In this document: piece after piece, positions 5,791-19,865 of the stretch | Position numbering within the stretch: the stretch's first letter is position 1 | Layout: each line of letters begins with the position of its first letter | Source of the DNA: Thermoleophilaceae bacterium | Lineage (GTDB): Bacteria > Actinomycetota > Thermoleophilia > Solirubrobacterales > Thermoleophilaceae | Direction: 5' to 3' | Assembly (NCBI GenBank): GCA_016929195.1 | Contig: JAFGJG010000160.1 | Location: 1-55,467 of the forward strand | Length of the DNA: 55,467 bases | Notes under the pieces: generated by a model | Databases searched by the model: none | Told to the model about the DNA's origin: nothing | The model's input: only the letters and a program-made list of their open reading frames with translations | Made by a program: the position numbers and the translations under genes

Positions 5791-8013
5791 TCAGCGTTCG
5801 CCGCGGTCCGCCTGGAAGCGGCGCAGACGCAGGGCGTTCGCGACGACGGACACGCTCGAGAGCGCCATGGCGGCCCCGGCGATCACCGGGTTCAGCAGGC
5901 CCGCCGCGGCCAGCGGGAGCGCCGCGACGTTGTAGCCGAACGCCCACGCGAGGTTCTCCCTGATCGTGCGCAGCGTCGCGCGGCTCAGGCGGATGGCGTC
6001 GCCCGCCGCGCGCAGGTCGCCGGACACGAGGGTCAGGTCGGAGGCCTCGATGGCCACGTCGGTGCCGGTCCCGATCGCGAGCCCGAGGTCCGCCTGCGCA
6101 AGCGCCGGAGCGTCGTTCACGCCGTCGCCGGCCATCGCGACGACGCGGCCCTCGTCCTGAAGCCCGCGGACGACGGCGGCCTTGTCCGCCGGAAGCACCT
6201 CGGCGATCACCTCGTCGATGCCGACCTCGGCGGCGACGGCCCTCGCCGTCGCCTCGTTGTCGCCGGTCAGGAGCACCGGGCGCAGGCCGAGCGCGCGCAG
6301 CGATGCCACGGCCCCGGCGGAGCTCGGCTTCACCGTGTCGGCGACCACGATCACGGCGACGGCCCGGCCGTCCCAGCCCACGGCGACCGCGGTCTGCCCG
6401 CGCGCCTCCGCGCGTGTGCGCGCGTCCTCGAGGGCGGGCGGCAGGTACATCGCCCAGTCGGCGAGCAGCGCGGGGCGGCCGATCACGATGGCGCGCCCGT
6501 CGACCACGCCCTCGACCCCCAGGCCCTCGCGGTTGCCGAACGCCTCCACGGCGGGCAGCGTCCCGGCCTCATCCGCCGCAGCCGCGGCGATCGCCCGCGC
6601 GACCGGGTGCTCCGATGCGTTCTCGAGGGCACCCGCGAGCCGGAGCAGCTCCACGCGGTCGACCCCGTCGGCGAGCACGACCTCGACGAGCGCCATGCGC
6701 CCGGTCGTGACCGTTCCGGTCTTGTCGAGCACGATCGTGTCGGCCCTGCGGGTCGATTCGAGCACCTCGGGCCCCTTGATCAGGAGGCCGAGCTGGGCGC
6801 CGCGCCCGGTCCCGACCAGCAGTGCCGTGGGCGTGGCGAGACCGAGCGCGCAGGGGCAGGCGATGATGAGGACCGCAACCGCGGCGGTGAAGGCGAACGT
6901 CGCGCTCTCGCCGGTACCGAGCCAGAACCCGAGGGTGGCGACCGCGAGCCCGATCACGACCGGGACGAACACGCCCGAGACGCGGTCGGCGAGCCGCTGG
7001 ACCGGCGCCTTGCCGGTCTGCGCCTCCGTGACCAGCCTCCCGATCTGAGCCAGGGCCGTGTCCGCGCCCACGCGCGTGGCGCGTACAACGAGCCGCCCGC
7101 CCGCGTTCACGGTGCCGCCGGCCACCTCGTCTCCGGGCGCGACCTCCACCGGGATCGACTCCCCGGTGAGCATGCTCATGTCGAGGGCGGAGCTGCCCTC
7201 CTCGACGACGCCGTCGGTCGCGACCTTCTCGCCCGGGCGCACGACGAACCTGTCGCCAGCCTGGAGCTGGTCGACGGGGACCCGCCGCTCGCCGCCGCCG
7301 GGATCGAGCACGGCGGCCTCCTTGGCGCCGAGCTCGAGCAGCGCCCTCAGGGCCGCGCCCGCACGGCGCTTCGCGCGCGCCTCGAAGTAGCGGCCGGCGA
7401 GGATGAAGGTGGTCACGACCGAGGCGGTCTCGAGGTAGATCTCGTCGGCCCCGGAGCCCGCCTCCGGGACGAGGTCGAGCGTCATTCGCATGTCGGGCAT
7501 GCCGGCGTCGCCGATGAAGAGTGCGTAGAGCGACCAGAGCCACGCCGACAGGACGCCGACCGAGACGAGCGTGTCCATGGTCGCGGCCCCGTGCTTGAGG
7601 TTCGCCCAGGCGGCCTGGTGGAACGGCCAGGCCCCCCAGACCACCACCGGGGTGGCGAGGTTGAGCGCGAGCCACTGCCAGTTGTCGAACTGGAACGCCG
7701 GCACCATCGAGAGGAGCAGCACGGGCAGCGACAGCACGGCCGACAGGACGAGCCGCCTCCGCAGCGACGCGGTGGGGTCGGCCTCCTCCTCGGCCTCGGC
7801 CGCGGAGGGAAGCACGGCCTGGTAGCCGGCGGCCTCGACGGCCTCGACGAGCCGCTCCGGCGCGACCGTCGCGGCGTCGAACTCGACGCTCGCCCTCTCC
7901 GTCGCGTAGTTCACGGTCGCCGTGACGCCGTCGAGCTCGTTGAGGCTCTTCTCGATCCGGTTGGCGCACGATGCGCACGTCATTCCCGCGATGGGCAGCT
8001 CTGTCGTGCTCAC
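5791..8013 (-). CDS. copA: Copper-translocating P1B-type ATPase CopA
   Basis: Copper exporter of 740 residues. A single N-terminal heavy-metal-associated domain carries GMTCASC (Cys13, Cys16); the membrane site is CPC within IACPCALGLATP; the phosphorylation site is DKTGT and the hinge is GDGVNDAPAL. This is the P1B-1 pattern for Cu(I) export across the plasma membrane. Start is GTG overlapping the stop of the upstream secreted-protein gene (GTGA). Transcribed with that gene from the CsoR-controlled divergent promoter. Confidence 0.95.
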   Translation of the reverse strand: MSTTELPIAGMTCASCANRIEKSLNELDGVTATVNYATERASVEFDAATVAPERLVEAVEAAGYQAVLPSAAEAEEEADPTASLRRRLVLSAVLSLPVLLLSMVPAFQFDNWQWLALNLATPVVVWGAWPFHQAAWANLKHGAATMDTLVSVGVLSAWLWSLYALFIGDAGMPDMRMTLDLVPEAGSGADEIYLETASVVTTFILAGRYFEARAKRRAGAALRALLELGAKEAAVLDPGGGERRVPVDQLQAGDRFVVRPGEKVATDGVVEEGSSALDMSMLTGESIPVEVAPGDEVAGGTVNAGGRLVVRATRVGADTALAQIGRLVTEAQTGKAPVQRLADRVSGVFVPVVIGLAVATLGFWLGTGESATFAFTAAVAVLIIACPCALGLATPTALLVGTGRGAQLGLLIKGPEVLESTRRADTIVLDKTGTVTTGRMALVEVVLADGVDRVELLRLAGALENASEHPVARAIAAAAADEAGTLPAVEAFGNREGLGVEGVVDGRAIVIGRPALLADWAMYLPPALEDARTRAEARGQTAVAVGWDGRAVAVIVVADTVKPSSAGAVASLRALGLRPVLLTGDNEATARAVAAEVGIDEVIAEVLPADKAAVVRGLQDEGRVVAMAGDGVNDAPALAQADLGLAIGTGTDVAIEASDLTLVSGDLRAAGDAIRLSRATLRTIRENLAWAFGYNVAALPLAAAGLLNPVIAGAAMALSSVSVVANALRLRRFQADRGER

Positions 8014-8849
8014 CGGGCGACCTCCTGCGTGAACTCGGCGGTGTGCACCACCCCATCGTGCTTGAACTGGAGGTAGAGGCGGTAGCGGCCCTCGCTCGGG
8101 AACTCGGTCCTGAACGAGACGGGCCCGCCGTGCTCCTCGGGATGCACGTGCAGATAGGCGAGGTCCCCTTCGCGGAGCGCGACCAGGTGGCCGCCCGCGC
8201 CCAGGTAGGGCTCGGTGCGGACCTGGACGCCGTCGCGGCTGACGCTGAAGCGAAGCTCCGCCTCGTCACCGGCGCTAACGCGGCCGGCGTCCAGACGCAC
8301 GCCGTACCCGTCGCCGGTGCTCGCGGCCGCTGACGGCGCCGGCAGCGGCCCGTAGTCCGCCTCGCCGTCCACCGCGAGGTCGGCCGCGAGCGTGCGCGCC
8401 TCCCCGTCGTGGACGAAGTCGGCGAACACGCGGTAGGCGCCCGCGTCGGGGAGGGTCGCCTGCACGCGCCAGACGCCGTCGTCCCCGAGCCTCGGGTGGA
8501 GGTGCTGGAAGCCGCGGCCGTCGCGGCGCACGACGATCACGTGCATGCGCTTCTCGTGCTCGACGTCGAAGTCGCGCACGGGCCGGCCGCCGTCGCCGCG
8601 GATGCTGAAGGCGAGCACCGCAGCGCGGCCGCGCGGCAGCTCGCCCTGGCGCAGCGCCAGCTCCAGGCCGTCGGCCTCCACCGCCAGCCCACGGACCGGG
8701 TCGGGCGCGGAGTGGCTCATGCCGGCCGCGGGCTCTCGATCCGGGCCGATCACGGAGCCGGCCGCGACCGCCGCGCCGAACACCAGCGCGAGCACGGCCG
8801 CGAAGCCGAGGAGCCTGACCGGTGTCTTATACGCCTGGGGGGTATTCAC
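8010..8849 (-). CDS. Secreted or anchored His-rich protein of the copper operon
   Basis: About 279 residues with an N-terminal hydrophobic segment (LLGFAAVLALVFGAAVAAG) acting as signal or anchor. The body holds two similar halves: each has a His-containing turn (HLHP near residue 130; YLHVHPEEH near 240) and a strand ending F-x-H-D-G (FVHDG, FKHDG), so an internal duplication of a beta-sandwich unit is likely. A role in extracytoplasmic copper binding is inferred from the histidines and from its place as first gene of the copA operon. GTG at 8849 is chosen because it follows the promoter; a longer ATG frame would start within the csoR coding region. Confidence 0.7.
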   Translation of the reverse strand: MNTPQAYKTPVRLLGFAAVLALVFGAAVAAGSVIGPDREPAAGMSHSAPDPVRGLAVEADGLELALRQGELPRGRAAVLAFSIRGDGGRPVRDFDVEHEKRMHVIVVRRDGRGFQHLHPRLGDDGVWRVQATLPDAGAYRVFADFVHDGEARTLAADLAVDGEADYGPLPAPSAAASTGDGYGVRLDAGRVSAGDEAELRFSVSRDGVQVRTEPYLGAGGHLVALREGDLAYLHVHPEEHGGPVSFRTEFPSEGRYRLYLQFKHDGVVHTAEFTQEVAR

Positions 8850-8856
8850 GGCGAGC

Positions 8857-8890
8857 GCGACTATAACACCCCCATGGGGTATTCTCCAGT
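8857..8890. promoter_or_regulatory. Divergent copper promoter with CsoR operator
   Basis: The gap between the copA operon and csoR holds the palindrome CCCCATGGGG at 8870-8879, inside GGGGTATTC-type sequence that recurs at 8839-8847, as in known CsoR sites. On the minus strand TGGAGA (8888-8883) and TATAGT (8865-8860) form a promoter with 17-bp spacing, the palindrome lying in the spacer. On the plus strand TATTCT (8880-8885) is a fair -10 eight bases before the csoR ATG, implying a leaderless transcript. Repressor binding would block both directions. Elements are seen; binding is inferred. Confidence 0.6.
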
Positions 8891-8893
8891 CCC

Positions 8894-9190
8894 ATGGCCA
8901 CCACATCGCAGACGCGCGGCTACACCGCGACCAAGGAGCAGCTCCTCACACGCCTCAGGCGCATCGAGGGTCAGGTGCGCGGCATCGAGGGCATGGTCGA
9001 GGACGATCGCTACTGCATCGACGTCATCACCCAGATCTCGGCCGTGCAGGCCGCGCTCGACAAGGTGGCGCTGGGGCTGCTCGACGGGCACGCCCGCCAC
9101 TGCGTCGTCGAGGGGCACGCCGAGGGCTCGCCCGAGGAGCTGACCGACGAGCTGATGGCCGCGGTCGGGCGCCTCATGCGACGCGGCTGA
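8894..9190 (+). CDS. csoR: Copper-sensing repressor CsoR
   Basis: All-helical repressor of 98 residues. Cys41, His66 and Cys70 reproduce the C-H-C Cu(I) site with the same spacing (25 and 4) as Mycobacterium CsoR, and the N-terminal half has the family segment LLTRLRRIEGQVRGIE. Loss of DNA binding on Cu(I) loading would derepress the divergent copA operon and csoR itself. No clear ribosome site precedes the ATG, in line with leaderless expression. Confidence 0.92.
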   Translation: MATTSQTRGYTATKEQLLTRLRRIEGQVRGIEGMVEDDRYCIDVITQISAVQAALDKVALGLLDGHARHCVVEGHAEGSPEELTDELMAAVGRLMRRG

Positions 9191-9547: not shown

Positions 9548-10197
9548 GCCCCGCCGAGCCCCGCTACGTCCCGGCCGCCGGACACCGTGCGTTCACGCGC
9601 CTCTACGACCCGCTGCTCGCGCTCACGATGCGCGAGCGCACCTTCCGCGGGCGCCTCCTCGGCCGGGTCCGGGCCGGCCTCCCACCGCACGGCCGGGTCG
9701 CGGACGTGGGCTGCGGCACCGGCACGTTCGCCATCGCCGTCGCCGCGGCCACGGGCGCGCGCGTGACCGGCGTGGACGGCGACCCCTCGATCCTCTCGAT
9801 CGCCAGGGCGAAGGCGGGCGCCGCGGACGTGGACTGGATCGAGGGCAGGGCCGAGTCGCTCCCGCTGCCGGACGCCGGCACCGACGTCGTGGTGATGTCG
9901 CTCGTGCTCCACCACCTCGTGCCGTCTGCCAAGAGCGCCGCGCTGGCGGAGGCGGCCCGCGTGCTCCGTCCGGGAGGGCGGCTGCACGTGGCGGACTGGG
10001 GGAAGCCGCAGGGGCCGCTCTCGGCCGCGGTCTTCTCCGTGGTGCGATTGGCGGACGGCCGCGAGCAGACTCGCGACCACGCCGAGGGCCGCCTACCGGC
10101 GACGATCGCCGCCGCCGGATTCGATGAGGACGCGCCGCGGCAGCGCCTGGGGACCGCGTTCGGGACGCTCGAGCTGATCTCGGCCGTCAGGCGCTGA
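9544..10197 (+). CDS. Class I SAM-dependent methyltransferase
   Basis: Soluble protein of 217 residues with the Rossmann-type SAM site: motif I VADVGCGTGTF near residue 52, acidic motif GVDGDPS, and VLRPGGRLHVADWGKP typical of methyltransferase domain 11. The last third is divergent and gives no substrate. ATG overlaps the stop of the DUF4396 gene (ATGA), so the two are probably co-transcribed. It converges with the histidine kinase gene, overlapping its 3' end by 11 bp. Confidence 0.82.
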   Translation: MSPAEPRYVPAAGHRAFTRLYDPLLALTMRERTFRGRLLGRVRAGLPPHGRVADVGCGTGTFAIAVAAATGARVTGVDGDPSILSIARAKAGAADVDWIEGRAESLPLPDAGTDVVVMSLVLHHLVPSAKSAALAEAARVLRPGGRLHVADWGKPQGPLSAAVFSVVRLADGREQTRDHAEGRLPATIAAAGFDEDAPRQRLGTAFGTLELISAVRR

Positions 10198-11533
10198 TCG
10201 TCACCTCGGCGCCGCCGCCGTTCACGTTCGCGGCGGTCACGCTGCCGTCGTGAGCGACGGCGATCGCCTCGACGATCGCGAGCCCCAGCCCGGCGCCTTC
10301 CGTCGAGCGCCCCGCGTCGCCGCGCGCGAACCGCTCGAAGACATGGTCGAGCAGCTCGGGCGGAAAGCCGTGCCCGTGGTCGCGCACCGACAGCTCGACG
10401 CCCCCCGCGCCACGGCGGGCGCTGAGCTCGATCGGACCGGCGCCGTGGCGGCGGGCGTTGTCGACGAGGTTGCCGAGCGCCTGCTCGATCCTGAGCTCGT
10501 CCAGCTCCGCCCCCAGGCCCGGCTCCACGCTGATGCGAAGGTCCATCCCGGCGGGCGCGAAGCGGCGCCGGACCCGCTCGAGCAGCTCACCGACGTCGAC
10601 GTCGGCGCGCCGGATCGGGAGCCGCCCCTGGTCCGAGCGGGCGAGGACGAGCAGATCCTCCGCGAGCATGGCGAGCCTGTCCGTCTCCTCGGCCGCCGAG
10701 CGGAGGGCCGTCTCGAGCTCCTCGGCGGTGCGCGCTGAGCGCTGCGCCAGCTCGAGCTCGGTCTTCAGGATCGCGAGGGGCGTGCGCAGCTCGTGGCTCG
10801 CGTCGGCCACGAAGGTGCGCTCGCGTGCGAGCGCAGCCTCGAGGCGGTCGAGCATCTCGTTGAGCGTCTCGCCGAGGCGCCCGACCTCGTCGTCGGCCTC
10901 CGGAACCGGCAGCCGCCGCCCCGGCTCGCGCTCCGAGATCTCGGCGGCGCGCCGGCGCATCGCCTCCACCGGGCGCAGCGCCGCGGTGGCGAGCAGGTAG
11001 CCCGCCCCTGAGGCCAGCAGCAGGGCCACGGGCCCACCGATCCAGAGAAGCGTCGCCGCCCGGCCGAGCTCCTCGTCGCGGTCGTCGAGCGCGGAGCCGA
11101 CCGCCACGACGACCGGGCGGCCGTCGGCCCGAGCCGGGCCGGCGAGAAGCCTGACGGGTGTGTCGACCCCCGGTAGGCGGGCGCGCTCAACGCGGACTTC
11201 CCGGGTCCGGGCCTCCCTCACCACGGCGGCCGGGACGACCGGGCGGTCGATCGCTGTCGAGGCTGAGAGCACGCGGCCGTTCGGGCCGAGCACCTGCGCG
11301 AGCCGCTCGTCACGCTCGACCAGCAGCTCGCGCCCATAGCTCAGGTACGCCGGCCCGCCTTCGCGGACCAGCGCGCTCACGTCCGCCAGCCGGGTCGCGA
11401 GTCCCTCGTCGATCGTCTCGTCGATCGACGCCTCGAGCCGGTCGTAGAGGAGCAGCCCCATCCCGCCCAGGACCGCCGCCATGACCACGGCGAAGGCCAG
11501 CGTCAGCTTCAGCCGGATGGGGACGCGCCTCAC
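10187..11533 (-). CDS. Membrane sensor histidine kinase
   Basis: Kinase of 448 residues: helix 1 near 10-28, a periplasmic region to about 155, helix 2 near 160-180, a HAMP linker, HisKA domain with DASHELRTPLAIL (phospho-His), and a C-terminal ATPase domain with GNLVDNARRHG (N box), DHGHGFP and GAGLGLAIV (G boxes). The probable partner is the OmpR-type regulator encoded divergently at 12017, with a PepSY protein gene between. Start is GTG. Confidence 0.9.
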   Translation of the reverse strand: MRRVPIRLKLTLAFAVVMAAVLGGMGLLLYDRLEASIDETIDEGLATRLADVSALVREGGPAYLSYGRELLVERDERLAQVLGPNGRVLSASTAIDRPVVPAAVVREARTREVRVERARLPGVDTPVRLLAGPARADGRPVVVAVGSALDDRDEELGRAATLLWIGGPVALLLASGAGYLLATAALRPVEAMRRRAAEISEREPGRRLPVPEADDEVGRLGETLNEMLDRLEAALARERTFVADASHELRTPLAILKTELELAQRSARTAEELETALRSAAEETDRLAMLAEDLLVLARSDQGRLPIRRADVDVGELLERVRRRFAPAGMDLRISVEPGLGAELDELRIEQALGNLVDNARRHGAGPIELSARRGAGGVELSVRDHGHGFPPELLDHVFERFARGDAGRSTEGAGLGLAIVEAIAVAHDGSVTAANVNGGGAEVTISA

Positions 11534-11559
11534 GGCGCCAGCCTACGTCCGGCGACCGC

Positions 11560-11886
11560 TCAGTCCTCCCGGTCCGAGTCGATCGCCACGAGCCCGAAGC
11601 TCTCGTCCAGGCGTACGTCCACCTGCGAGCCGTCCGGCTTCCGCACCTCGACCTCGTAGGCCGCGCCTCTCTCACCGTCGCGCTCCATCGCGTTGACGCG
11701 GCCTCCTCCGGTGGCCCTCAGCGCGGCCACGCGGGCCCGCTGCTCGACCTTGGCGCTCAGCCCGCCCTCGTCGTCGCCCTGGTCGGAGTCGTCACCGCCG
11801 CCGGCGGCGCCGGCGATCGCCGCGCCTCCGAGCGCGAGAGCGGCCAGCGCCGCCACTCCCGCGACGACCTTTCTGAGCCTGTCCAT
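11560..11886 (-). CDS. Secreted PepSY-like protein
   Basis: A 108-residue exported protein: signal-like segment (about residues 5-27), an acidic linker (DDSDQGDDEGG), then one PepSY-type unit with AAYEVEVRKPDGSQVDVRLDE followed by GLVAIDSD. PepSY proteins often act in the cell envelope next to sensor kinases or proteases. Good ribosome site (AGGAGGA). It is the first gene of a minus-strand unit with the kinase (26-bp gap), so it may be a ligand or modulator of the sensor; that role is inference. Confidence 0.72.
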   Translation of the reverse strand: MDRLRKVVAGVAALAALALGGAAIAGAAGGGDDSDQGDDEGGLSAKVEQRARVAALRATGGGRVNAMERDGERGAAYEVEVRKPDGSQVDVRLDESFGLVAIDSDRED

Positions 11887-11954
11887 TCGTGTGTCCTCCT
11901 GAGTCGCTTGCCTGGACCGCAGGCTACGTCCGCCCCGTGAGACTCCCGTGAGCC

Positions 11955-11995
11955 GATGAGACGGCGATGAGTGCCGACCTCATCCGCCGCTCATC
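11955..11995. promoter_or_regulatory. Symmetric tandem-repeat operator, probable OmpR-type site
   Basis: In the 130-bp gap between the PepSY gene and the response regulator: GATGAG at 11955, GATGAG at 11966, then CTCATC at 11979 and CTCATC at 11990. Each half is a direct repeat with 11-bp period, the spacing of winged-helix OmpR-type dimers, and the halves are inverted copies. It probably controls both divergent units and would be bound by the regulator encoded at 12017. Confidence 0.6.
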
Positions 11996-12016
11996 ACCGC
12001 GTGACAGGCTCCCCGC

Positions 12017-12706
12017 ATGCGCGTGCTTGTGGTGGAGGACGCCGTGAAGATGGCGAGCCTGATCCGGCGCGGGCTGCGCGAGGAGGGGTTCGCCGCGGAC
12101 GTGGCGATCAGGGGTGAGGACGCGCTCTGGATGGCGGGAGCCACCGACTACGACGCGATCGTCCTCGACGTGATGCTTCCGGGGATCGACGGCTTCGAGA
12201 CCTGCCGCCGGCTCCGGGAGGACGGCGTCGGCGCCCCTGTCCTGATGCTCACGGCGCGCGACGCCGTCGAGGACCGGGTCGCCGGCCTCGACATCGGGGC
12301 GGATGACTACCTGACGAAGCCGTTCTCGTTCGCCGAGCTCCTGGCGCGGCTGCGCGCGCTCGGGCGCCGCGGGAACCCCGAGCACCCGACGGTCCTGCGC
12401 GCCGGAGGCCTGTGGCTCGATCCCGCGGCGCGCCGCGCCGGGCGCGGTCACACCGAGGTCGGCCTCTCCGCCAAGGAGTTCGCGCTGCTCGAGACCTTCA
12501 TGCGCAACCCCGGCCGCGTGCTCGACCGGCTGCACCTGCTCGAGCACGCCTGGGACTACGAGTACGAGAACCGGTCGAACGTCATCGACGTGTACGTGCG
12601 CTACCTGCGCGAGAAGGTGGACCGGCCGTTCCGCGTGGAGAGCATCGAGACGGTCAGGGGCGCCGGCTACCGGCTCCGGGCCGACGGCGGCGACGCGGAG
12701 GCCTAG
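12017..12706 (+). CDS. OmpR/PhoB-family response regulator
   Basis: Regulator of 229 residues. Receiver domain 1-118 with acidic pair Glu7-Asp8, phospho-acceptor Asp51 and Lys101 (TKPF); winged-helix DNA-binding domain about 130-222 with GLSAKEFALLE, SNVIDVYVRYLREKV and VRGAGYRL. Likely partner of the kinase at 10187-11533. The upstream gap has no clear ribosome site but a striking four-part repeat (11955-11995), fitting autoregulation. Confidence 0.93.
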   Translation: MRVLVVEDAVKMASLIRRGLREEGFAADVAIRGEDALWMAGATDYDAIVLDVMLPGIDGFETCRRLREDGVGAPVLMLTARDAVEDRVAGLDIGADDYLTKPFSFAELLARLRALGRRGNPEHPTVLRAGGLWLDPAARRAGRGHTEVGLSAKEFALLETFMRNPGRVLDRLHLLEHAWDYEYENRSNVIDVYVRYLREKVDRPFRVESIETVRGAGYRLRADGGDAEA

Positions 12707-14606: not shown

Positions 14607-15025
14607 GCGCCGCCGACGCCGAGACTGCCCGGACCGCGCTCGAGCGGGTCTGCGCGCGCGCCGACATGGAGCTCGCACGCGACTGCTATTCGGCCGGCTT
14701 CGTCGATCACGTCAACGCCGCCGAGCTGCACGGGCACGACGGAATCCGAGAGTCGACAGCCCTCTACCGCGCCCTCTTCGACGACCTCGAGATCCGGGTG
14801 GTCGACCAGGTGCACGAGGGCGACCGCGTGGTGAGCCGCTGGATCATGACCGGGTCGAATCGCGGCCGTCGCGCCGAGCTGTCCGGCATCACGATCAGCC
14901 GGATGGAGGGCGGCCGGATCGCCGAGGACTGGAGCGCGCTCGACAGCCTCGAGCTCCTGCGCCAGCTGGGTCTAGTCCGGTCGCTGTTGGCCGCACCGCT
15001 GCTGCTGCGCGCTTCCCGCCTCTAG
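14603..15025 (+). CDS. SnoaL-like (NTF2-fold) protein
   Basis: A 140-residue protein with SnoaL-like pattern: YSAGFVDHVNAAELHGHDGIRE at the N-terminal helix turn, IRVVDQVHEGDRVVSRWIMTGSNRG and a C-terminal IAEDWSALDSLELLRQLG. Polyketide-cyclase and isomerase members share this fold; no specific substrate can be named. GTG start overlaps the cyclase stop, so the pair is co-translated. The 3' end overlaps the convergent arsC by 4 bp. Confidence 0.78.
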   Translation: MSAADAETARTALERVCARADMELARDCYSAGFVDHVNAAELHGHDGIRESTALYRALFDDLEIRVVDQVHEGDRVVSRWIMTGSNRGRRAELSGITISRMEGGRIAEDWSALDSLELLRQLGLVRSLLAAPLLLRASRL

Positions 15026-15417
15026 GTGGCTCCGAGCTCCTCCACGAGCGCCGCGACGCGCCGGGCGATCTCGTCGCGGGTGGCGCGCACCTCTTCGAGC
15101 GGACGGCCCTTCGGGTCCGGCAGGTCCCAGTCGAGGTAGCGCTTCCCGGGTATGTAGGGGCACTCGTCGCCGCAGCCCATGGTCACCACGACGTCGGCGC
15201 GCTCCGCCAGCTCGCGGGTCAGCTTCTTCGGGACCTGCCCGCTCAGGTCGAGGCCGAGCTCGGACATGACCTCCACGACCTCCGGGTGGAGCCGCTCGCC
15301 GGGCGTCGTGCCGGCCGACTCCGCCTCGTGCCGCCCTTCCGCGGCGCGCTCGAACAGGGCGCGGCTCATCTGCGAGCGGCCGGCGTTGTGGAGGCAGACG
15401 AAGAGGACCCGGGCCAT
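15022..15417 (-). CDS. arsC: Arsenate reductase, LMW-phosphatase type
   Basis: Protein of 131 residues that reduces arsenate to arsenite. The P-loop VCLHNAGRSQMS holds the catalytic Cys8 in C-x5-R, followed by the second conserved cysteine region TMGCGDECPYIPG and the DWDLPDPKG segment of thioredoxin- or mycothiol-coupled ArsC enzymes. Fourth and last gene of the minus-strand ars operon, starting directly after the stop of the R2lox-like gene. A second ArsC is encoded at the head of the same operon. Confidence 0.9.
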   Translation of the reverse strand: MARVLFVCLHNAGRSQMSRALFERAAEGRHEAESAGTTPGERLHPEVVEVMSELGLDLSGQVPKKLTRELAERADVVVTMGCGDECPYIPGKRYLDWDLPDPKGRPLEEVRATRDEIARRVAALVEELGAT

Positions 15418-16242
15418 TCAGAGCTCGACGCCGATGATCTTGAGGCGGCGCGTCAGACCGCCCAGCGCGAACTCGCGGATCTCCTCCGCGCTCGCGCCCA
15501 GCGCGTCCCAGTCGGTGCCGTCGCGGTCGGGCGGGGTCAGCGCGTCGGCGACCGCGGGCAGCAGCGCGCCCAGCGTCGAGCGCACGTCGCCGGCCAGCTC
15601 CGGCTCGTCGCCGACGGCCTCGCGCAGGAACCAGACGCCGTAGCCGATATGGCGCTGCTCGTCGTGGTGGATCCGCGTGTACCCCTCGACGAAGCCGGGG
15701 AGCTGCCCGCTGCTCTCGAGGTAGCGGGTGATGAAGTTGAACGCGGTCAGGCCGAGCGTGCCCTCGATGACCAGGTGGTAGGTCGTGACGAAGGCAACCT
15801 TCGCGCGTCTGTTCGAGGGCTCGGCCGTCAGGCGCTCGTGGGCCTTAACGAGCTGCTCGTCGAAGATCGTGGCGAAGGCGGGCGACAGCTGCTGGCGGGC
15901 GCGCGCGACGTGCTCCGCGACGGTCGCCGGGTCGGCCACCACCTCGTCCTGGTAGCGCGCGTAGAACTGCATGTGCCGCGCCTCGTCGACCTGCTGCGTG
16001 GCGAGGAACGTCGCCTCCTCCTCGGTCCCGTAGGCGCCCACGAGCCCCGAGAACTTCGTCGTGATCCGCTCCTCGGCGACCATGAGCGAGGCGAGCGCCC
16101 AGTGGACGAGCGAGCGGTCCTCTCCGCCCATGACCTGCCACTGCTCGGCGTCCGGCGCGAGGTCGATCCGGAACGGGCTCCATTGCTCATCCTCCCAGTG
16201 GCGGTAGAGCGTCTGGGGGTCGTGGAGATGTATCTCGGTCAT
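15418..16242 (-). CDS. R2-like ligand-binding oxidase (R2lox-type), in ars operon
   Basis: A 274-residue ferritin-fold protein of the ribonucleotide reductase R2 superfamily. Di-metal ligands are visible: Glu57 (VAEERI), Glu87 and His90 (DEARH), Glu160 (LVIEG), Glu195 and His198 (DEQRH). Tyr155 lies five residues before Glu160 and Ile60 three after Glu57, exactly where R2lox proteins have the Tyr-Val ether cross-link pair; no R1 subunit gene is near. It therefore looks like R2lox, a Mn/Fe oxidase of unknown substrate, rather than a nucleotide reductase. It lies between the aquaporin and arsC genes with 9 and 0 bp gaps. Confidence 0.75.
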   Translation of the reverse strand: MTEIHLHDPQTLYRHWEDEQWSPFRIDLAPDAEQWQVMGGEDRSLVHWALASLMVAEERITTKFSGLVGAYGTEEEATFLATQQVDEARHMQFYARYQDEVVADPATVAEHVARARQQLSPAFATIFDEQLVKAHERLTAEPSNRRAKVAFVTTYHLVIEGTLGLTAFNFITRYLESSGQLPGFVEGYTRIHHDEQRHIGYGVWFLREAVGDEPELAGDVRSTLGALLPAVADALTPPDRDGTDWDALGASAEEIREFALGGLTRRLKIIGVEL

Positions 16243-16251
16243 GCGCCGACC

Positions 16252-16923
16252 CTACGTGCTCTGCTCGCCGCGGACGACCTGGTAGGCGAACGCGCCGGCC
16301 ACGGCGCCGATGGCCGGCCCGAGGAGATAGATCCATGTGTCGGTCCACTCCCCCGCGGCCACGGCCGGGCCCAGCGAGCGCGCGGGGTTCATGCTCGCGC
16401 CGGTCACCGGCCCGCCGAAGAGCGCGTCGAGCCCCACGGTTCCGCCGATGGCGATCGCCGCCGCCGCGCCGACCGCACGGGTGTCGGTCGCCACGGCCAT
16501 GATCACGAACATCAGGAAGGCCGTGAGCAGGATCTCGTAGACGAGCGCGCTGCCCGCGCCGACCGTCGGGACGGTCGCGCCGAGCGCGGCCGGCTTGCTC
16601 GTCCACACCGCCAGCAGCACGAGCGCGCCGGCGACCGCTCCGGCAACCTGGGCGGCGACGTACGCCAGCGCGTCGCGAGGCGGGAAGTGGCGCGTGACCG
16701 TGAACGCGAGCGTCACGGCGGGGTTGATGTGCGCTCCGGACAGGTGGCCGGTGGCGTAGACCATGACCATGACGATCAGCCCGAAGACGAGCGCGATCCC
16801 GACCGTGCCGAGGGCGCTCCCGTAGCGGTCGTCGGTGACGATCGCGCCGCAGCCGGCGAAGACGAGCGCGAACGCCGCGAGACCCTCGGCGGCGGCCCTG
16901 CGTCCGAGGCCGGGGCGGGTCAC
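16252..16923 (-). CDS. aqpS: Aquaglyceroporin (MIP family), probable arsenite channel
   Basis: Channel of 223 residues with six helices and two NPA half-helices: HINPAVT near residue 65 and SMNPARS near residue 175. In ars operons of this layout the channel (AqpS) lets arsenite formed by ArsC leave the cell down its gradient. There is no ArsB or Acr3 pump in view, which supports that role. GTG start overlaps the arsC stop (GTGA). Substrate assignment is from context. Confidence 0.85.
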   Translation of the reverse strand: MTRPGLGRRAAAEGLAAFALVFAGCGAIVTDDRYGSALGTVGIALVFGLIVMVMVYATGHLSGAHINPAVTLAFTVTRHFPPRDALAYVAAQVAGAVAGALVLLAVWTSKPAALGATVPTVGAGSALVYEILLTAFLMFVIMAVATDTRAVGAAAAIAIGGTVGLDALFGGPVTGASMNPARSLGPAVAAGEWTDTWIYLLGPAIGAVAGAFAYQVVRGEQST

Positions 16924-17543
16924 GCGCCCGGCGGGGCGAGCGCGTCACAGGTCTCCCTGCGCAGGCACTCGCGGGTGCGGCTGTGGGCCACCGTCATCAC
17001 GAAGGACCGCACCGGTGCGTCGGCGTAGCCGTCGAGGATCGCGTCGGCGCAGCGCCGGATCTCCTCCGGGGTGCGGAGCCCCTCGAATTCCCGGACCAGA
17101 TCGGGCAGCAGTCGCGTGAGCCGCATCTGGTGGGCGGTGCGGTCGGAGCGGATCTGCTCCAGCCGGCCATCGATCAGGCCTCTCACGAGGCCCTCGATCT
17201 CGTCCCGGATCTCGCGCACCACCTCGATCGGCTCGTGAGCGGGATCGCGGACGTCCCAGTCCTCCACCCGCGTCGGAACGTAGGGACACGCGTCCCCGCA
17301 GCCCATCGTCACCGCCCAATCGGCGTGGAGCTGCATCTCGACGGTCAGCCGCTTCGGGCGGCGGGCGGAGAGATCGACGTCGAGCTCGCGCATCACCTCG
17401 ATGACGTTGGGCCAGACGTGGTCCGCGGGTGCCGATCCGGCCGACTCGGCCCGCACGTCCTCCGGTGCATGGCGCTCGAAGAGCGCCTGGGCCATCTGCG
17501 AGCGCCCGGCGTTGTGGTTGCAGACGAAAAGGACGTATCTCAT
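16920..17543 (-). CDS. arsC: Arsenate reductase with C-terminal three-helix domain
   Basis: A 207-residue protein: LMW-phosphatase-type ArsC in the first 130 residues (VCNHNAGRSQMA, catalytic Cys8; TMGCGDACPYVP; DWDVRDPAHEP), then about 75 extra residues (TPEEIRRCADAILDGYADA onward) resembling the three-helix dimerization domain attached to actinobacterial ArsC-like proteins, normally at the other end. First gene of the minus-strand ars operon, divergent from arsR across the promoter region. Confidence 0.85.
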   Translation of the reverse strand: MRYVLFVCNHNAGRSQMAQALFERHAPEDVRAESAGSAPADHVWPNVIEVMRELDVDLSARRPKRLTVEMQLHADWAVTMGCGDACPYVPTRVEDWDVRDPAHEPIEVVREIRDEIEGLVRGLIDGRLEQIRSDRTAHQMRLTRLLPDLVREFEGLRTPEEIRRCADAILDGYADAPVRSFVMTVAHSRTRECLRRETCDALAPPGA

Positions 17544-17561
17544 GCGATCGCACTCTAAGCG

Positions 17562-17590
17562 TTGACATTCATCGATTCAATCGATATATG
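17562..17590 (+). promoter_or_regulatory. arsR promoter with ArsR operator
   Basis: TTGACA (17562-17567) and TATATG (17585-17590) with a 17-bp spacer, a near-consensus housekeeping promoter. The spacer contains ATCGAT TCA ATCGAT (17571-17585), an inverted repeat suited to an ArsR dimer. The -10 ends seven bases before the arsR ATG, so the transcript is probably leaderless. The site is also 20-40 bp upstream of the divergent arsC start. Confidence 0.7.
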
Positions 17591-17597
17591 TAGATAG

Positions 17598-17951
17598 ATG
17601 CCTGTCGATCTGGAGCTCGCGCCGAAGCAGAAGCGGCCCGCCGGCGATCCCTGCTGCGAACCGGTCGCCTACCCGGATGTCGAGCGCGAGCAGGCCACGC
17701 GCCTGGCCAACGTGGCGAAGGCGATCGGCGACCCGGTCCGGCTTCAGCTCGTGGACGTCCTGCGCAAGCACGCCGGGAAGGTCTGCGTCTGCGAGCTCGT
17801 GCCGCTCTTCGACATCTCGCAGCCCACGCTCTCGCACCATCTGAAGAAGCTCCGCGAGGCGGGCATCGTCGATTCGGAGCGGCGCGGGCTGTGGGCGTAC
17901 TACTACGTGAACCCCGAAGCCCTGGAGGATCTCTCGCGATGGCTCAGCTGA
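17598..17951 (+). CDS. arsR: Arsenic-responsive ArsR-family repressor
   Basis: Winged-helix repressor of 117 residues. Cys63 and Cys65 in VCVCEL at the recognition-helix end match the classical arsenite-sensing site, and there is an extra Cys19-Cys20 pair in the N-terminal arm. HTH segment: DISQPTLSHHLKKLREAGIV. Arsenite binding should release it from the palindrome at 17571-17585 and open both divergent operons. Overlaps arsM by 13 bp. Confidence 0.92.
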   Translation: MPVDLELAPKQKRPAGDPCCEPVAYPDVEREQATRLANVAKAIGDPVRLQLVDVLRKHAGKVCVCELVPLFDISQPTLSHHLKKLREAGIVDSERRGLWAYYYVNPEALEDLSRWLS

Positions 17952-18721
17952 CCGACACCGACATCCGCGAACGGGTGCGCGAGCGCTACGCGAGCGCCGC
18001 CGCCGGAGCCGCCGACGCCATCGGCTGCGGCTGCGGCCCGGCCACGGCCTTCACCGACCCCGACATGTCCCCCACCGACCGCGAGGGGAGGGTCGTCTTC
18101 GGCAGCGCGCTCTACGAGTCCGAGGCCGATGGCGCCCCGAGGGCCGCCGTCGAGGCATCGCTCGGATGCGGAGTGCCCACAGCCGTCGCGGATCTCCACG
18201 AGGGCGAGACCGTGCTCGACCTCGGGTCCGGGGCGGGCGCCGACGTCCTCATCTCGGCGCGCCGTGTGGGCCCCGCCGGCAGGGCGATCGGCCTCGACAT
18301 GACCGACGAGATGCTCGAGCTCGCCCGGGCGAACGCCGCCGATGCGGGCGTCGAGAACGCCGAGTTCCTGAAGGGGTACATCGAGGAGCTGCCGCTCGAG
18401 GACGACAGCGTCGACGTGGTCATCTCGAACTGCGTCATCAACCTCTCCGCGGACAAGCCCCGCGTGCTCCGGGAGGCCGCGCGCGTGCTCCGCCCCGGCG
18501 GCCGGTTCTCCGTCTCGGACGTGATCGCCGATCCCGGCATGGACGCGGCCACGCGCGCCGACATGGAGCAGTGGACGGGGTGCATCGCGGGGGCGCTCAC
18601 CCGCGCCGAGTTCGAGCGCGCGCTCGAGGAGGCGGGGCTCGTGGACGTCGAGATCCGCGAGACCCACCGGGTGCACGAGCACGCGTCGTCCGCGATCGTG
18701 CGGGCGCGGAAGCCCTCCTAG
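17939..18721 (+). CDS. arsM: Arsenite S-adenosylmethionine methyltransferase ArsM
   Basis: A 260-residue methyltransferase converting arsenite to methylated, partly volatile arsenicals. SAM motif VLDLGSGAGADV around residues 92-103. Cysteines Cys77 (ASLGCG), Cys165 (ISNCVINL) and Cys215 (QWTGCIAGA) match the three arsenic-binding cysteines of characterised ArsM, and the Cys30/Cys32 pair (GCGCGP) fits the family N-terminus. ATG 17939 lies within the arsR end, indicating coupled translation. Confidence 0.93.
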   Translation: MAQLTDTDIRERVRERYASAAAGAADAIGCGCGPATAFTDPDMSPTDREGRVVFGSALYESEADGAPRAAVEASLGCGVPTAVADLHEGETVLDLGSGAGADVLISARRVGPAGRAIGLDMTDEMLELARANAADAGVENAEFLKGYIEELPLEDDSVDVVISNCVINLSADKPRVLREAARVLRPGGRFSVSDVIADPGMDAATRADMEQWTGCIAGALTRAEFERALEEAGLVDVEIRETHRVHEHASSAIVRARKPS

Positions 18722-18734
18722 GACGCCCGCGGGC

Positions 18735-19865
18735 ATGGCCTACCGGTCGCTGCTGGCGCTGGGAGCGCTTGACGCGGCCGGGTACAGCCTGATCGTCCCG
18801 GTGATCCCAGAGATCGCGGGCGCCACCGGCGCGGGGCCGGCGACGATCGGGCTCCTCGTGGCGACCTTCCCCGCCGGGATGATCGCCGGCTTCTGGCTCG
18901 CGGGGCGCGCGGTGACGCGCCATGGGGTGCGCCCCGTCATGCTGGCCGCGCTGTCGCTGATCGCCCTCGGCTCGCTGGGCTTCGTCGTCGCGGAGTCGCT
19001 TCCCGTGTACTTCGCCGCCCGGCTCGTGATGGGGCTCGGCTCGGCCGGCCTCTGGCTGGGGGTCACATTCGACACGCTGGCGCGCTGGCCGGGCCAGGAG
19101 TACGAGTGCATGAGCCGCGTCCTGGCCGCCTACTCGATCGGAGGGCTCGCCGGCCCGGCGCTCGGGGCGGTCGGCGGGGTGGCGCTGCCGTTCACGCTGT
19201 ACCTGGCGCTGGTGCTCGTCGCCTTCGCGCTGGTCCTCGCGCTGGAGCGCCCGGCGGGTGCCGCGACGTTCGCGCCCGACCGGGCCGCGCTCCGCTCGCG
19301 CGGCTTCCGGGTGGCCGCGTTCGCGGCGATGTTCGCCTACCTCGTCCTCGGCCTGATGGAGGGCGCGCTGCCGCTGCACCTCGCCGAGCACCTCTCCCAG
19401 GCCGAGATCGGAGCGCTCTACGTCGGTCTCGCCCTGATCGTCGCCGCCGGGGCCGCGGCAGCCGGGTCGCGACGGCCGCGCTCGATGGTCCGCGCGTCCG
19501 TCGTGCTGGCCGTGACGGGCATAGCCGTGGCGGGTGCCGTGTCGAGCGTCCCGCTGTGGATCCCGGCGCTCGGGCTGGCGGCGCTCGGGGTCGGCGTCGG
19601 CGCAACCGGCGCGCTGGGCCTGCTCGTGGAGGCGGTCGACGTGGGGCGGATCGTGACCGCGATGGTCGTCTTCTCGCAGGCCGGGATAGCCGGCTACCTC
19701 CTCGGCCCGCTCACCGGCGGCGCGGCCGCCGAGACGCTCGGCTACGCCGCCCTGGCGCTCGTTCCGGCCGCGTTCGGCGGCGCGGTGCTCGCGGCGATGA
19801 CCGCCGGCCCGACCCCGATCCAGGCGAGCACGAGCGGCCAGGTCCGGCCCGCGCGCAGGTCGTAG
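18735..19865 (+). CDS. MFS transporter, ars operon
   Basis: Membrane protein of 376 residues with about eleven or twelve hydrophobic helices and the MFS loop 2-3 pattern (GRAVTRHGVRPVML). Located 13 bp after arsM, so possibly an exporter of arsenite or methylated arsenicals (compare ArsJ, ArsK or ArsP roles), although none of those families is recognised here. The last 124 bp overlap the end of a convergent membrane-protein gene. Confidence 0.78.
   Translation: MAYRSLLALGALDAAGYSLIVPVIPEIAGATGAGPATIGLLVATFPAGMIAGFWLAGRAVTRHGVRPVMLAALSLIALGSLGFVVAESLPVYFAARLVMGLGSAGLWLGVTFDTLARWPGQEYECMSRVLAAYSIGGLAGPALGAVGGVALPFTLYLALVLVAFALVLALERPAGAATFAPDRAALRSRGFRVAAFAAMFAYLVLGLMEGALPLHLAEHLSQAEIGALYVGLALIVAAGAAAAGSRRPRSMVRASVVLAVTGIAVAGAVSSVPLWIPALGLAALGVGVGATGALGLLVEAVDVGRIVTAMVVFSQAGIAGYLLGPLTGGAAAETLGYAALALVPAAFGGAVLAAMTAGPTPIQASTSGQVRPARRS

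Follow-up and report, generated by a model that had tools for sequence, protein, structure and literature searches.

An R2lox-type protein embedded in arsenic-resistance operons of Solirubrobacterales: a candidate oxidase of trivalent arsenicals

Results

An R2lox-like gene within a four-gene ars operon

The stretch analysed here (the window, 55,467 nt) is contig JAFGJG010000160.1, labelled C186 in our numbering, from the 3.46 Mb, 97.6% complete assembly of a Thermoleophilaceae bacterium, and its reverse strand carries a gene for a 274-aa R2lox-like di-metal-carboxylate oxidase at 15418–16242 (−), identified through PF00268, alignment and an AlphaFold2 (AF2) model. The gene lies 9 bp after that of a MIP channel (16252–16923 (−); TIGR00861 over the cut-off), by context an AqpS-like aquaglyceroporin, and 0 bp before the operon's last gene, which encodes an ArsC-type arsenate reductase of the LMWP family (15022–15417 (−); PF01451, 8e-25; TIGR02689, E 4e-22, below its cut-off). 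The MIP gene in turn shares a 4-bp overlap with the operon's first gene (16920–17543 (−)), which codes for a second ArsC-like reductase of the LMWP family, ending in a three-helix domain (PF01451; NF046112, the MSMEG_6209 N-terminal type). Other ars islands repeatedly hold ArsC2-like genes of about this length. Because of these short gaps and the overlap, arsC2-aqp-R2lox-arsC1 is by its layout a single four-gene operon; the initial annotation, which had placed the R2lox gene between the aquaglyceroporin gene and arsC of an ars operon, is thus borne out and extended by the second arsC.

Fifty-four base pairs separate this operon from a divergent arsR-arsM-MFS set, comprising an ArsR/SmtB repressor recognised by family match (17598–17951 (+)), an ArsM arsenite methyltransferase (17939–18721 (+); NF008823, 286 bits, over the cut-off) and, directly after arsM, a transporter of the major facilitator superfamily (MFS; 18735–19865 (+)). 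The latter matches MFS_1 but no NCBIfam model over the cut-off and no curated arsenic transporter model (it is not ArsJ), and could be an organoarsenical exporter. The region in between (17544–17597, no strand) is a putative divergent promoter/operator, in which TTGACA stands 17 nt before TATATG, directed towards arsR, together with a ATCGATTCAATCGAT palindrome. All these elements were read by eye; a sigma-70 consensus scan of the region returned no site, though TTGACA-17-TATATG is visible. By the same inspection, 17 of 21 loci show an element resembling ATTGACA...AATCGATATATGTA ahead of arsR, while the remaining four, with a different ArsR subtype, mostly display inverted repeats such as ACACAACC-GGAT-GGTTGTGT.

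The protein has the predicted fold and metal site of R2lox

In Pfam and NCBIfam the 274-aa protein matched only R2/R2lox-type models and AurF, and it gave no match to the ArsH flavoprotein family in either collection. The Pfam hit is Ribonuc_red_sm (PF00268, 1.1e-15), while five NCBIfam R2lox models matched, all of them under their cut-offs (best NF006200, 122.8 bits against 194). The nearest sequences with solved structures are R2lox proteins (7qbp, 4e-21), and identity to R2lox is 22–27%. The AF2 model, built with 55 homologues, reached a mean predicted local distance difference test score (pLDDT) of 95.4, and the top 27 entries in structural comparison were all R2lox (Z 29.8–32.8, root mean square deviation (rmsd) 1.8–2.7 Å).

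As in GkR2loxI, Rv0233, SeR2lox and SaR2loxII (Z 30–33, rmsd about 2 Å), there is no adjacent gene for an R1 subunit and the ligand set consists of four Glu and two His with Glu first, as the R2lox criterion demands. The six residues (E57, E87, H90, E160, E195, H198) align with the R2lox ligands and are invariant in 115 homologues. Y155, equally invariant, aligns with the cross-link residue Y162 of Geobacillus R2lox, and I60 with its V72, so that both the ligands and the Tyr155/Ile60 pair proposed initially are in place. Class I ribonucleotide reductase (RNR) R2 proteins share the ferritin-like fold and the ligand geometry, but their structures rank below R2lox (Z 27 and under), and the small Gly164 stands where R2 has Phe. 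No R1 gene is nearby, as had been noted, the PF02867 matches of the genome being on contigs C161, C45 and C18; an RNR R2 identity was rejected on the fold ranking and this missing neighbour. The same genome (G000) carries three further R2lox-like paralogues, on contigs C71, C21 and C114 (L006–L008), which are 33–37% identical and not linked to ars genes.

Linkage to ars genes defines a single clade

A survey of related genomes, as the initial annotation had proposed, found the linkage to recur. Homologues from 201 genomes of the order were sorted into identity bands, and linkage, taken as an ars gene within 5 kb by tblastn, was scored over 60 neighbourhoods, to which a scan of 84,980 species genomes added named loci. 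Among Solirubrobacterales homologues of at least 52% identity, 25 of 30 were ars-linked, compared with none of the 88 below 52% (Fisher p 5e-21, a value that ignores relatedness). In a tree of 115 sequences, of a quick kind and with the order inside the ars clade partly unresolved, the ars-linked genes all fall in a single clade of 28 (SH-aLRT 100, stem 0.69), and the linkage label changes 6 times, against a mean of 21 in shuffles.

Matches below E 1e-60 in a phylum-wide sample of 396 genomes were confined to Solirubrobacterales, and all loci of at least 52% identity in the species scan came from Solirubrobacterales/Thermoleophilia metagenome-assembled genomes (MAGs) or from MAGs named only Actinobacteria or bacterium. 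Since that scan relied on a pair of short peptide patterns, of which one holds the clade's own Ala-Glu-Glu-Arg-Ile motif, a divergent ars-linked R2lox elsewhere could have escaped it. We found no paper linking R2lox to arsenic or to arsenate reductase.

The ars clade departs from R2lox at otherwise constant positions

Positions 60, 56 and 164 are Ile, Ala and Gly in all 28 aligned ars-clade sequences, and Val, Gly and Ala in the remaining 87 homologues (83 of Thermoleophilia type and four outgroup rows); the equivalent R2lox positions are Val72, Gly68 and Ala171, respectively. L53, M54 and Y94 are further residues specific to the clade, against mostly Phe at each position elsewhere. In R2lox, complete conservation of V72 has been described (PMC6060897), and both A171 and G68, the residue before the first ligand, are conserved, the latter highly so (PMC6399176, PMC7239806). 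Substitution of G68 alters metal selectivity, and A171 is part of the fatty-acid tunnel lining (PMC6399176, PMC7239806). The V72I variant of GkR2lox still forms the ether cross-link, with greater light sensitivity (PMC6060897), so the O2 chemistry should survive in the ars clade.

With Val72, Gly68 and Ala171 all replaced, the protein is not a standard R2lox. The R2lox-type assignment made initially therefore stands for the fold, the ligands and the cross-link Tyr, but not for these three residues or for the NCBIfam cut-offs; judged from alignment and model, the ars-clade protein is an R2lox by descent and fold, yet lies outside the published residue definition. Given a single linked clade and residue changes that run through all of it, arsenic operons captured and remodelled an R2lox. 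Comparison shows an R2lox-type oxidase that has become a dedicated ArsR-linked component of ars operons in Solirubrobacterales, with its active site changed at positions otherwise constant.

Partners change while R2lox stays in the islands

Neighbouring genes were called with a home-made codon-trained gene caller, and representatives of ArsI/CadI, ArsN1a, ArsJ, its GAPDH and ACR3 scored above the NCBIfam cut-offs. In the 25 linked loci the same-strand gene immediately upstream of R2lox is arsM in 13 and arsR in 7, and in single loci arsI (L044), arsN1a (L112), aqp (the window) or a gene for a calcineurin-like phosphoesterase (L051); L055 has arsC downstream of R2lox only. Eleven of the upstream junctions are 4-bp overlaps. 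As arsM, arsR, arsI, arsN1a and aqp alternate at this junction, the partner varies and R2lox remains inside the arsenic islands. The calcineurin-like phosphoesterase occurs in two islands (L042:5231–5956 (−) and L051:1523–2239 (+)).

No conserved ferredoxin, rubredoxin or reductase gene lies near R2lox in the ars clade. Sister clade C (L064–L083, L127–L129), the nearest non-arsenic R2lox clade, has a TetR neighbour in 15 of 23 loci and a rubredoxin neighbour in 5 of 23, compared with none in 30 for either in the ars clade, which suggests that clade C is a rubredoxin-fed oxygenase.

The initial annotation had also drawn attention to the lack of an arsenite pump. No ACR3 above the cut-off was found anywhere in the genome, ArsB not having been searched for, and to this extent the remark holds; other R2lox-bearing islands do contain ACR3 or ArsJ, and a missing pump was consequently rejected as a functional clue. 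The aquaglyceroporin of the operon may serve as an arsenite exit route, by analogy with AqpS of Sinorhizobium meliloti, where aquaglyceroporin and arsenate reductase likewise stand together without ArsB/ACR3 beside them, although R2lox is not part of that description (PMC6205960).

Other genes in the window and a distant relative

A heavy-metal P-type ATPase gene (HMA domain), with a divergent CsoR-type repressor gene (PF02583) nearby, occupies 6001–9190 of the window, and a CopR-like response regulator and a histidine kinase are encoded at 10187–12706; together these genes make up a wider metal-resistance region. Streptomyces plasmid NZ_CP107797.1 encodes, inside a non-ribosomal peptide synthetase/halogenase cluster, a distant R2-like protein (L178:5950–6915) that carries the annotation RNR beta and is probably a biosynthetic oxygenase.

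Discussion

We see close to an even chance that the R2lox-type oxidase of these operons, with its Ile-type cross-link site, has evolved to detoxify arsenic, using O2 to oxidise trivalent arsenicals that are probably methylated. When arsenic is present, ArsR would let go of the operon, the R2lox-like protein would take up Mn/Fe or Fe/Fe, and its cluster, once reduced, would activate O2. A toxic trivalent arsenical, likeliest methylarsenite or dimethylarsenite made by ArsM in the same cell or coming in from neighbouring cells, would be oxidised in the remodelled pocket to a pentavalent and much less toxic form, the arsenical itself acting as electron source. A substrate that is its own electron donor fits the absence of a conserved ferredoxin, rubredoxin or reductase gene, and a reducing substrate, for instance a trivalent arsenical, is also in keeping with two differences from clade C, another regulator and no neighbouring electron carrier. 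R2lox would in this manner fill the role played elsewhere by ArsH, with which it would share the oxidation of trivalent arsenicals within ars operons, whereas ArsH is an NADPH flavoprotein of unrelated fold. That the ArsR-linked R2lox does this ArsH-like job, on likeliest methylated substrates, is advanced tentatively and could well be wrong, and it is the substrate step that we infer.

Several observations weigh against this proposal. Five of the 30 clade members are not linked to ars genes, two of which (L057, L063) lie near a contig end. No cysteine, nor any other obvious arsenic ligand, is shared across the ars clade, and most members contain no Cys at all; the excess of Cys-free sequences (19 of 26, against 9 of 34 outside) is phylogenetically confounded and was not used as evidence. 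ArsH was found in none of the 201 genomes of the order and ArsI in only six, but the absence of ArsH lends weak support, as Gram-positives are said generally to lack it (PMC6205960). ArsI adjoins R2lox in L044 and is one gene apart in L112, so R2lox does not just stand in for ArsI, an enzyme that also uses O2 and a metal for organoarsenical breakdown in ars operons but is a mononuclear iron enzyme of the vicinal oxygen chelate fold, unrelated in sequence. Finally, ArsM gave no match in 13 of the 27 genomes of the order sample that carry R2lox, some MAGs being incomplete, and ArsM is not enriched with R2lox (14 of 27, against 74 of 174 other genomes). We therefore rejected the idea that R2lox must act on what ArsM of the same cell produces; the substrate need not be self-made methylarsenite. 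With the simple ArsM-product model disfavoured, we place oxidation of a trivalent arsenical, possibly external, ahead of a repair or lipid role, our second reading.

In that second reading, which we regard as unlikely though it merits attention, the oxidase acts on a fatty acid, lipid or thiol damaged or demanded by arsenic, in membrane remodelling or thiol repair, and is merely co-regulated with resistance. Previously described R2lox proteins carry a bound long-chain fatty acid (PMC6399176), alkane degradation in crude extract has been reported for one of them (PMC10867098), and very different ars partners, with half of the genomes without an ArsM match, would be expected of a general stress function; against it, no conserved lipid, thiol or electron-transfer gene travels with R2lox.

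An attack on the carbon of an organoarsenical, by cleavage or hydroxylation as in demethylation or the breakdown of arsinothricin-like compounds, seems improbable to us. It would suit the position of R2lox directly after ArsM in 13 loci, after ArsI in one and after the arsinothricin resistance gene arsN1a in one, with ArsN1b nearby in one further locus, and R2lox chemistry is known to target a C–H bond, at the Val C-beta (PMC6060897). Yet ArsI already demethylates where the two co-occur (L044, L112), a monooxygenase needs electrons for which no donor gene is linked, and the missing ArsM matches count here as well. Oxidation of inorganic arsenite to arsenate in the cytoplasm is more doubtful still: R2lox does occur without ArsM, and in three islands (L040, L043, L160) it is paired with the arsenate-exporting GAPDH/ArsJ and has no arsC within 5 kb, but most islands, the window included, hold one or two arsenate reductases alongside, which would make the step a futile cycle. 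There is similarly little chance that R2lox is a passenger, or an O2, reactive oxygen species or metal buffer without a substrate, since, despite the unlinked members and a clade that the searched samples restrict to one order, it remains joined to its partners, frequently with 4-bp overlaps, as these are reshuffled around it, its ligands and Y155 are invariant, and no other non-ars gene recurs in the islands to a like extent.

The context of the ars clade is a strong genetic clue that points to an arsenic-related job for an R2lox-type protein. Furthermore, the clade varies naturally at G68, V72 and A171, the very positions that biophysicists have mutated, so that function and active-site tuning become testable together. 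If arsenical oxidation is indeed the function, a soil lineage that yielded no ArsH would have an unrelated fold among its means of arsenic resistance; the protein would count as an enzyme class new to ars operons, and its R2lox lineage as one whose physiological role lies elsewhere than in hydrocarbon or natural-product chemistry.
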